Of a stretch of 64,000 bases of DNA, positions 8,914 through 12,086 are shown in pieces. The stretch is from Haloarcula pelagica (GTDB lineage: Archaea > Halobacteriota > Halobacteria > Halobacteriales > Haloarculaceae). The notes beneath the pieces were generated by a model that did no database searches, was not told the origin of the DNA, and saw nothing but the letters and a program-made list of their open reading frames with translations. A program made the translations under genes and the position numbers. Location of the stretch: contig NZ_CP126161.1 of the NCBI RefSeq assembly GCF_030127105.1, positions 186,001-250,000 on the forward strand. The letters are read 5' to 3'. The first letter of the stretch is position 1. Each line of letters opens with the position of its first letter.

Positions 8914-9681
8914 ATGGCAGACAGCGACCGGTCCGACGACAAGCCCGCGTCACTCCTGACCAAGACACAGCGGTCCCGCATCCGCGAGGCGTTCGCCGAA
9001 CAGGACGAACACCAGCGCCGAAGGGACCAACGACAGATCCGCGAGCGGGTGCGTGCCGGGGTCACGGACTTCGAGGTGTTGGCGGACTACCCCGACCGTC
9101 AGTTCGAACTCGCCTTCGACGACCTCGACGAGGAAGCGTTGACGGCTGCGCTTGCCGACGCCAGACTCGTCACCGAACGGCTGCGATCCCTCCACGGAGT
9201 CGACCGCCAGGCGGTCGTCGATCGGGCCAGCGACCGCGCGAACGCGGTCTCACAGACGCTCGACGATACGGAGAGCCTCGACGGCGTGGAACTCGTCCCG
9301 GCAGCGACCTACCGACAGCAGGGCCGCGCGGCCGCGGCGGCCGAACACGGGAACCGCTGGGACGAGCGCGCCGACGGCCTGCTGAAGACCGCCGCCGTCG
9401 CCGCGTTACCACTGCTGGTCGGCTGGTTCGCCGATACGGTGACCGAACAGAACCTGCTAGCGACCCGAGCGGAGGTCTGGATCGTGATGGCTCTGTCCGC
9501 GCTGGTCGTCCTGACGGGGCTCGCGGGCGTCCTCCTCATCAAGGGCGCACAGGCGCTGAAACACGACATCATCCCCGCCTGTCGGCGGTTCCGGCGCGAA
9601 CCGACCGCTGTGGTCGGCGACGCAGCGGCGTTGCTTCGACGCCCCGGAACGAGACTCCGGGCGGTGTGGGAGGAGCTCTGA
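8914..9681 (+). CDS. Hypothetical two-TM membrane protein
   Basis: 255 aa. The N-terminal 145 residues are charged and probably helical. Two adjacent hydrophobic segments (about 153-172 and 186-212, ending VVLTGLAGVLLI) form a hairpin anchor, followed by a short basic cytoplasmic tail. I do not recognise the family. The gene stands alone, convergent with the CPBP protease gene 10 bp away. There is no Shine-Dalgarno before the ATG, and the transcript seems to start about 98 nt upstream at a mini-ORF. Confidence 0.65.
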   Translation: MADSDRSDDKPASLLTKTQRSRIREAFAEQDEHQRRRDQRQIRERVRAGVTDFEVLADYPDRQFELAFDDLDEEALTAALADARLVTERLRSLHGVDRQAVVDRASDRANAVSQTLDDTESLDGVELVPAATYRQQGRAAAAAEHGNRWDERADGLLKTAAVAALPLLVGWFADTVTEQNLLATRAEVWIVMALSALVVLTGLAGVLLIKGAQALKHDIIPACRRFRREPTAVVGDAAALLRRPGTRLRAVWEEL

Positions 9682-9691
9682 GCGGCCGGCG

Positions 9692-10465
9692 TCAGAGCGG
9701 GGCCAGTTCCAGGACCAGCTCGTGGAAGGAAATCGTCCACGACATCGCGTGCGTGACCGCCGTCACGATCAAGTTCTCCGTGCGTTCGTAGGCATACCCC
9801 CACACCATCCCCGGGAGAGCCGTGGTGAGCCCCCAGCGGAGCGCACCGGCCGGCGCGACGCTCGGCGTGAGGAAGCCGATCAGGACGTGCATGAGTCCGA
9901 ACAGGAGTCCGCCAAGCACTACCACGCCCGCCACGTCGAACGCCCGACGAAGCGTCCCCTGGACGATCCCACGGTAGACGAGTTCCTCGGCCGGGGCGGC
10001 AAAGAGGAACATCCCGACGAACGCGGCCGGCCACAGCAGCGGCCGGGTCGCGAGGTCGATACTCCCTACGGCAGTCCCCTGATCGGGATGTGGCAGTCCC
10101 AGGGCGGCCAACACCGGGGAGAGGACGACGCCCTGTGCCGCGAACACCAGCGGGATGGCGACGATCCAGGCGGCGTCTGCCAGCGTCGGGACGCGGAGTT
10201 TGCAGTAGTGGCCGAGGTCGCCGCGCCAGGCGAGAAACACGGCTGCGAAGGCCGCGAACCCGACCTGAACGGAGTGGAGCTTGAGGGCCCAGACAGCGGG
10301 GGCCGTCAGGACGCCGACGGCGCGGAGGACCACACCGGCAGCGACGATGCCGACGATTCCAGTCACCAACGCGACGACGGTGATGCCGAGCGCCGCCAGC
10401 CCGGCGCGGACTCGCGGGGGCAGCGAGGCACCGCTGTCGGACTCGCGGTCGGTTGCGAGGGTCAC
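9692..10465 (-). CDS. CPBP-family intramembrane metalloprotease
   Basis: 257 aa with about seven hydrophobic segments. EELVYRG at about residues 161-167 is the EExxxR motif of CPBP (CAAX-processing Abi-type) membrane proteases, followed by the second motif region FGLMHVL, which holds a conserved His. The start is the GTG at 10465: a strong Shine-Dalgarno GGAGGTGA lies 3 nt before it, and the GTG overlaps the stop of a leaderless 31-codon ORF as GTGA. The substrate is unknown. Upstream lies a symmetric operator with a TrmB-type site. Confidence 0.8.
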   Translation of the reverse strand: MTLATDRESDSGASLPPRVRAGLAALGITVVALVTGIVGIVAAGVVLRAVGVLTAPAVWALKLHSVQVGFAAFAAVFLAWRGDLGHYCKLRVPTLADAAWIVAIPLVFAAQGVVLSPVLAALGLPHPDQGTAVGSIDLATRPLLWPAAFVGMFLFAAPAEELVYRGIVQGTLRRAFDVAGVVVLGGLLFGLMHVLIGFLTPSVAPAGALRWGLTTALPGMVWGYAYERTENLIVTAVTHAMSWTISFHELVLELAPL

Positions 10466-10557
10466 GGCTCACCTCCCCGTGGATGGGCACGCAGGCGGTC
10501 GCGAGCGGTGCTGTCTCTCCCTGATCGGGAGCGGAGTCGGAGTCGAATCGTCGACAT
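10462..10557 (-). CDS. Leaderless 31-codon upstream ORF coupled to CPBP gene
   Basis: ATG at 10557 lies about 30 nt from a TATATAA-type box. The ORF ends in TGA overlapping the GTG of the CPBP protease. The peptide begins MSTIRLRLRSRSGRD and is very Arg-rich, so a stable protein is unlikely. A coupling or regulatory uORF is the more natural reading. Confidence 0.4.
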   Translation of the reverse strand: MSTIRLRLRSRSGRDSTARDRLRAHPRGGEP

Positions 10558-10583
10558 CGCAGGTCGAGCCGAGGTGCGAGCCG

Positions 10584-10590
10584 CATATAA
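10584..10590 (-). promoter_or_regulatory. TATA box for the mini-ORF/CPBP transcript
   Basis: TTATATG on the minus strand, about 30 nt before the ATG at 10557. It lies between that start and the 10615-10672 operator. Confidence 0.5.
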
Positions 10591-10614
10591 CCCTGAACGG
10601 TCGTTTACCGGCGC

Positions 10615-10672
10615 TGTACGGCCGTACACCGGATATACTCGTTTCGGGAGTACGTCGGTGTACGGGCGTACA
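10615..10672. promoter_or_regulatory. Nested dyad operator containing a TrmB-type site
   Basis: Two palindromes, TGTACGGCCGTACA (10615-10628) and TGTACGGGCGTACA (10659-10672), flank TACT-N8-GAGTA (10636-10652), which matches the published Halobacterium TrmB consensus TACT-N7/8-GAGTA. The centres are about 22 bp apart, near two helical turns. The arms are also inverted repeats of each other (CCGTACACCG at 10622 and CGGTGTACGG at 10656). It lies upstream of the TATA box at 10584. The rest of 10466-10835 holds only the mini-ORF and promoter described separately. Confidence 0.6.
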
Positions 10673-10835
10673 CCGGGCTGGTGAACCCAGTTTCCGGGAC
10701 CGTGGCCCTCCCCCGACGGCGTGCGATCTTAACGGCCGGACGGAAAAAATCGTCAACAGTGCGAGAATAGCGTGAACCGGGGTTACGCAGCGTCGACCAA
10801 CGCGAATCGGCGATCCGCCGGCTCGACGAGTCGCT

Positions 10836-12086
10836 TCACTCCTCGTCGAAGAGGGTGTCGCCCTCGACCATGTGCTCTTCGACGGCGTCCATGTCGAGGG
10901 TGAGGCCGAGTCCGGGCTCCTCCGGAATCTCGATGTAGCCGTCCTCGATGACATCCTCCTCGACCAGGTCCTCCCACCAGCCGAGTTCGTAGGAGTGGTA
11001 CTCGACGGCCAGCGAGTTCGGCACGGCGGCGCCGACGTGGGCGCTCGCCATCGTCGCGATCGGCGAGGAGACGTTGTGCATCGCGACCGGGATGTAGTAC
11101 TGGTTGGCGACATCCGCGACCTTGCGGGTCTCGCGCATCCCGCCGACCTTCGGCATGTCGGGTGCGACCATGTCGACGGCCTGGTTCTCGATGAGGCGGC
11201 GTTCCTCGGTCACGCGGTAGCGGTTCTCCCCGACGGTGATCGGCGTCGTCGTGGACTTGGTGACCTCCTCCTGGACTTCGAGGTTCTCCGGCGGGACGGG
11301 GTCTTCGAGCCACCAGACATCGTACTCCTCGATGGCTTCGGCCAGGCGCTTCCCCGAACTCCCGCTGAACGTCCAGTGACAGTCGAAGGCCACGTCGGCC
11401 TCGTCTTTGACTTCCTCGGTGACTTTCTCGACGATCTCGGCCTTGTGGCGGATCTCGCCGGGCCGGAGGTGGCGGTTCGCGCGGTCTTTCTCCAGGCCGC
11501 TGGGCACGTCCAGGTCGAACTTGAGGGCGTCGTAGCCGAGTTCGTCGACGACACGGCGGGCCTCCTCGGCGCAGGCGTCGGCGTCGGCCTCTTCCTCGGT
11601 GTGACAGTCACAGTAGACGCGCATCTCGTCGCGGTACTTCCCGCCCAGTAGCTGGTAGGCCGGGACTTCGAGGATCTTGCCGGCGAGGTCGTGCAGCGCG
11701 ACCTCGATACCGGCGATGGCGGTGACCGTGACGCCCTCGACGCTCCCTTCACCCGACATCTTCTGGATGAGGTGCTCGTAGAGGCGGTCGATGTCCAGCG
11801 GGTTCTCGCCGACGACGAACGGCTTCATCCGCTCGATGAGTTCCGGAACGCCGGCGCCCCAGTAGGCCTCGCCCGTCCCGACGATGCCGGCGTCGGTGTA
11901 GATGCGGACCAGTGTCCACGGGAAGTTCCCGTCGACCATCGTGGTCTGGACATCGGTGATCTCGACATCGCGGCCGCCACCGCGTTTCGCGGTGACGCCC
12001 ATCGTCTCCGCCGAGAGTTCGCGCATCGTGTACTCCGCGTTCGGATCGTGCAGGTCAGCGTAATCCACGTCGTTTGCCTGTCCCAT
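10836..12086 (-). CDS. gnaD: Sugar-acid dehydratase, enolase superfamily (gluconate/xylonate dehydratase type)
   Basis: 416 aa, typical length for haloarchaeal MR-subgroup acid-sugar dehydratases that convert D-gluconate (or D-xylonate/D-galactonate) to the 2-keto-3-deoxy acid. This is the entry to the semi-phosphorylative Entner-Doudoroff route. The N-terminal capping domain is followed by a TIM barrel with LKFDLD, AFDCHW and WLEDPVPPEN (metal-ligand strands), VGENRY, and a C-terminal AMHNVSSPIATMASAH segment with the conserved His. GnaD and XacD are close paralogues and sequence alone does not separate them here, so the symbol is a best guess. A TATA-like element about 26 nt upstream fits a leaderless ATG. 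Neighbours are sugar-sensing and sugar-oxidising genes. Confidence 0.8.
   Translation of the reverse strand: MGQANDVDYADLHDPNAEYTMRELSAETMGVTAKRGGGRDVEITDVQTTMVDGNFPWTLVRIYTDAGIVGTGEAYWGAGVPELIERMKPFVVGENPLDIDRLYEHLIQKMSGEGSVEGVTVTAIAGIEVALHDLAGKILEVPAYQLLGGKYRDEMRVYCDCHTEEEADADACAEEARRVVDELGYDALKFDLDVPSGLEKDRANRHLRPGEIRHKAEIVEKVTEEVKDEADVAFDCHWTFSGSSGKRLAEAIEEYDVWWLEDPVPPENLEVQEEVTKSTTTPITVGENRYRVTEERRLIENQAVDMVAPDMPKVGGMRETRKVADVANQYYIPVAMHNVSSPIATMASAHVGAAVPNSLAVEYHSYELGWWEDLVEEDVIEDGYIEIPEEPGLGLTLDMDAVEEHMVEGDTLFDEE

Follow-up and report, generated by a model that had tools for sequence, protein, structure and literature searches.

A conserved pair of palindromes upstream of haloarchaeal CPBP protease genes and the orphan membrane protein that accompanies it

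Archaeal upstream activating sequences, such as those associated with GvpE and Ptr2, are short palindromic elements that occupy a fixed place upstream of BRE/TATA. In bacteria, envelope-stress modules use membrane-anchored regulators, as exemplified by anti-sigma systems with intramembrane proteolysis. For the archaeal TrmB proteins, the position of the binding site goes with the direction of regulation: sites further upstream are associated with activation, sites that overlap BRE or lie downstream of TATA with repression (PMC10817205, PMC4158304). The published consensus of the TrmB protein from Halobacterium (VNG1451C) is TACT-N7-8-GAGTA (PMC4158304). The CPBP proteases of archaea are almost unstudied; a review lists five of them in Haloferax volcanii, one null mutant having no growth defect and the function being otherwise unknown (PMC9263693). 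The element described below stands before a CPBP gene in a 64,000-nucleotide stretch of Haloarcula pelagica contig NZ_CP126161.1, referred to as the window.

The palindrome pair and the string between its halves

The pair consists of the CPBP-proximal palindrome TGTACGGCCGTACA (10615-10628; 20-bp extended site 10612-10631), which is conserved, and the CPBP-distal palindrome TGTACGGGCGTACA (10659-10672; 20-bp extended site 10656-10675), neither being assigned to a strand. Both match TGTACGNNCGTACA exactly. Their centres, at 10621.5 and 10665.5, are 44 bp apart, and the arm TGTACGGCCGTACACCG matches the inverted form of CGGTGTACGGGCGTACA at 16 of 17 positions. Direct reading of the sequence thus bears out the preliminary description, which had noted two palindromes with identical cores and inverted flanks at this spacing. 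The exact site occurs only twice in the 4,458,205 bases of the genome, both occurrences being those of the window pair, and the reversed control pattern does not occur at all. A relaxed search, allowing one mismatch or the variant TATACG, returned 11 matches against 6 for the reversed control, and the matches beyond the exact pair are near background.

Between the palindromes, at 10636-10652 and likewise without strand, lies a string resembling a TrmB site, with TACT at 10636-10639 and GAGTA at 10648-10652; the same letters can be read as the palindrome TACTC-N7-GAGTA, centred at 10644. The preliminary description had built on it a composite operator in which TrmB would be bound centrally and flanked by a second dimeric regulator. 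The string is indeed present as TACT-N8-GAGTA, fits the consensus and is nearly centred between the palindromes, in a genome that encodes many TrmB-family proteins. However, TACT-N7-8-GAGTA is found 12 + 20 times on the two strands of this genome against 12 + 15 times for the reversed control, a background frequency at which a single match carries little weight. Moreover, the closest orthologous operator, in genome G012 (43-bp spacing), has no such motif between its palindromes, nor have the other relatives inspected: the pair recurs in relatives, but the string does not. The length of the spacer also varies, being 30, 33, 43 or 44 bp. The string was accordingly judged to be background, and a composite with TrmB is very improbable. 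The best reading puts in its place the paired sites of what would be one dedicated regulator.

A rare, conserved element that follows gene X

The presumed target of the sites is the gene of a CPBP (Rce1-like, PF02517) intramembrane protease, at 9692-10465 on the reverse strand. Tail-to-tail with it, at 8914-9681 on the forward strand, lies gene X, which encodes an orphan protein with a helical N-domain and two predicted transmembrane helices. A blind search of 392 Halobacteriales genomes with the paired pattern gave matches in four (the window genome, G012, G266 and G383), and all four exact pairs lie before a CPBP protease gene that neighbours X. The CPBP protein of G012 is 81% identical to that of the window, and the palindrome pair is kept there at 43 bp. 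A blind scan of GTDB contigs returned 35 stretches, three of which are named as haloarchaeal (Haloferax mucosum, Hfx. larsenii and a Haloquadratum MAG) and carry the pair in the CPBP/X intergenic region with a centre spacing of 33 bp; the result rests on these haloarchaeal stretches, many of the bacterial matches belonging to a small number of MAGs. Across the 392 genomes the 16-mer GTGTACGNNCGTACAC was found 10 times: 8 times at CPBP-X loci, once in a response-regulator reading frame (G245) and once before another gene (G215). In G215, an isolated GTGTACGTACGTACAC stands directly before a small antitoxin-like gene, as judged by eye (L161).

An operator upstream of the CPBP gene, as first proposed, is supported by this conservation before CPBP orthologues, which extends over several haloarchaeal families. 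It also bears on the other neighbour of the pair. The 3' end of a sugar-acid dehydratase gene lies at 10836, at the distance of 164 bp given in the preliminary description, and the inverted symmetry of a sequence so placed behind a stop codon would suit a terminator-type inverted repeat, or some other element belonging to that gene. Such an origin is practically negligible, since the pair is conserved before CPBP where the upstream genes differ and consists of a specific repeated motif at a fixed distance from start codons (see below). A dehydratase operator was likewise rejected, the element standing behind the dehydratase gene and being kept where other genes take its place.

Gene X is labelled 'hypothetical protein' in Haloarcula plasmid records. 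It is present in 32 of the 392 genomes of the order, some with several copies, and the distribution of its modules among haloarchaea is patchy. The N-terminal 100 residues are well conserved (LLTKTQR...KRRRD..IR.RVAAG..DF..L..YPD.Q), and in an AlphaFold model the N-domain is helical and leads into two long hydrophobic helices. As modelled, X would thus have a soluble domain plus a transmembrane hairpin, as expected for a membrane-anchored one-component regulator. Searches of Pfam, NCBIfam, PADLOC, PHROGs, PDB and BFVD gave no meaningful match. X is found in two main settings, either beside CPBP or divergent from an ABC-2 transporter made up of an ATPase with a DrrA-type C-terminus and an ABC2_membrane_2 permease; in one locus (L126) a PAP2 gene lies between X and the ABC-2 genes. 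Apart from X, no gene is shared by all modules, and no linked transcription factor is conserved at the module loci. In Hfx. larsenii, and at this locus only, a gene that by eye resembles the TrmB family (L107, 6217-7071) ends just behind X. In G012, the closest relative, contig 3 (363 kb) carries a second copy of the module in which X is split into two reading frames (L117).

A scoring matrix was built from the operators of CPBP-X loci (29 sequences, one of which, L109 6349, is misplaced and adds only noise). With it, sites were found at 17 of the 18 CPBP genes beside X (scores 14.8-27.8) and at none of the 24 CPBP genes without X, all of which scored at most 4.4; the former loci largely coincide with the training set of the matrix, whereas the latter were not part of it. 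The ABC-X loci provided an independent test: 22 of 28 regions upstream of X reached a score of 8 or more, compared with 8 of 442 control windows (p = 3e-16), the control windows coming from the same ABC-X loci and related loci not being statistically independent. The sites of these loci are of the TRTAYNNNNRTAYA type, which is the core common to all site variants, and in most loci they are found near -165 and -79 relative to the X start, with 85-87 bp between them. Clear sites are missing at several further X loci, and the matrix search found none at the promoter of X itself in the window. Among the CPBP-X loci, only L115 (G262) is without any site; there CPBP precedes X on one strand, and the two may be cotranscribed. 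In the loci L118-L148, which have X without CPBP, X and the divergent ABC-2 gene each have their own site about 60 bp above the start codon. Taken together, these data show that the pair is a real, rare and conserved element that follows X rather than CPBP as such.

In a tree of X, the window belongs to a clade with X and CPBP in tail-to-tail arrangement and a pair spacing of 43-44 bp; this clade groups with an ABC-linked X, apart from the divergent CPBP-X clades (33 bp). X and the site variants show no clear co-variation (Spearman -0.09), only close relatives of X sharing site variants.

Position of the sites relative to promoters and start codons

Measured from the edge of the 20-mer site to the start codon, the site mostly lies 52-64 bp (commonly 59-62) above the first open reading frame, be it X, an ABC gene, CPBP or a leader ORF. 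For ABC genes with a placeable start the distance is 58-63 bp, mostly 60-62, with one at 51; for X in ABC loci, counted where a near site was found, it is mostly 59-60 bp (range 52-62). Most of the directly starting CPBP genes stand at 62-63 bp, with extremes of 47 and 72, L110 being omitted for its uncertain start. At most divergent CPBP-X loci X is at least 78 bp from the near site, which suggests that these pairs are set for CPBP rather than for X. TATA-like boxes lie between sites and start codons; in the window, sequence and conservation in G012 point to a probable TATA box, TTATATGC, of the CPBP transcript at 10583-10590 on the reverse strand. Haloarchaeal transcripts are often leaderless, so that the simplest explanation of a constant distance to the start codon is a core promoter at a set distance from the site, and the start of the first ORF would approximate the start of transcription. 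Read in this way, the sites behave as an upstream activating element would, a conserved motif lying upstream of the predicted BRE/TATA at a constant distance. The spacings of 33, 44 and 85-87 bp are near whole helical turns and that of 112-113 bp is not, for which reason strict helical phasing of all spacings was dropped. By eye, a string approximating (A)AACNGTC recurs about 20 bp below the site in both CPBP and ABC promoters (L111, L107, L096 and L072); it could be an extended BRE or the site of another factor.

At eight loci with a long leader, the CPBP start is 146-251 nt from the site. Seven of these, among them the window, have a leader ORF that begins with an ATG at 54-61 nt from the site and runs into the CPBP start codon, stop and start overlapping as ATGA or GTGA; the other six are L075, L073, L109, L117, L076 and L116. 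The leader ORF of the window has 31 codons (10462-10557, reverse strand), its ATG lying 54 nt below the edge of the proximal site and its stop overlapping the CPBP start as GTGA. Shuffling would yield such an arrangement at 1-4% per locus, and the loci represent about five independent lineages. The leader peptides are poorly conserved and differ between lineages, so that the leader is likely to serve in bringing ribosomes to the CPBP start. The window transcript would start at the leader ORF, and the overlap of stop and start would likely couple its translation to that of CPBP.

Position alone suggests that the sites probably activate transcription: by analogy with the archaeal TrmB proteins, whose upstream sites are associated with activation, a factor bound immediately above BRE/TATA would switch on the CPBP gene. 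They could instead be repressor operators, blocking the access of transcription factors to the promoters. Palindromic paired operators often serve repressors, and a single complex between divergent genes could shut off both; but here the sites keep a fixed distance on the upstream side of the probable BRE/TATA, a placement that for archaeal TrmB goes with activation (PMC10817205, PMC4158304), and repression is rather unlikely.

The candidate regulator and comparison with known systems

The palindromes are very probably the paired sites of one dedicated regulator, itself probably dimeric, and form the upstream control element of CPBP within the X module. Both sites, 33 or 44 bp apart and hence on about one face of the helix, would be occupied together by one dimeric factor. 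A less certain step is that membrane-anchored X itself binds them. X is the one constant gene and is distributed along with the sites, and no further exact target exists in the window genome; on the other side, X has no known DNA-binding fold, none having been recognised by Pfam, by PDB sequence or by fold comparison, no site lies at its own promoter in the window, and its co-variation with the site variants is not clear. X is the leading though tentative candidate, with a probability somewhat short of even. An unlinked transcription factor acting through the same operator is about as likely, X then being a sensor or effector whose promoter that factor also controls. The want of a recognised DNA-binding fold in X speaks for such a factor, as does the single core TRTAYNNNNRTAYA in all variants, which one widespread factor would need. 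Yet X is patchily distributed and the strict 16-mer sites hardly occur outside X loci, so that an unlinked factor would have to travel separately, and the lack of a further exact target in the window genome also weighs against it. A bolder and rather doubtful proposal is that X founds a new family of membrane-anchored regulators with a new DNA-binding fold, which would sense the envelope and switch on CPBP or ABC-2 genes through TRTAYNNNNRTAYA, and that cleavage by CPBP may then either release or silence X.

Whichever protein binds it, the element connects CPBP proteases as well as ABC-2 exporters with a single undescribed membrane protein across haloarchaeal families. It opens archaeal envelope signalling to testing and points clearly to a candidate for a new family of regulators. 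A search of the open-access literature, to which it was confined, found no paper on the motif or the module. As a class, operators and upstream activating elements are familiar; no description appears to exist of the sequence, of the X-CPBP/ABC module or of the strict spacing.

With the Halobacterium TrmB operators the element shares a palindromic site upstream of a haloarchaeal promoter, and in both the position relative to BRE/TATA would set the direction of regulation (PMC4158304). By contrast, the palindrome sequence is unrelated, the TrmB-like string is here unconserved and at background, and the targets do not belong to carbon metabolism. The palindromes resemble the GvpE and Ptr2 elements in being short and held at a fixed upstream place. 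They differ in being placed farther upstream than BRE-adjacent elements, about 60 bp from the ORF start, in their sequence and target genes, and in having only a candidate cognate factor. The likeness to bacterial anti-sigma envelope-stress modules concerns only how the system might work. X, which has no meaningful match in Pfam, NCBIfam, PADLOC, PHROGs or PDB, would combine a soluble domain with a transmembrane hairpin in a putative regulatory role, and the target genes encode a membrane protease, ABC-2 exporters and, in one case, a PAP2 protein.
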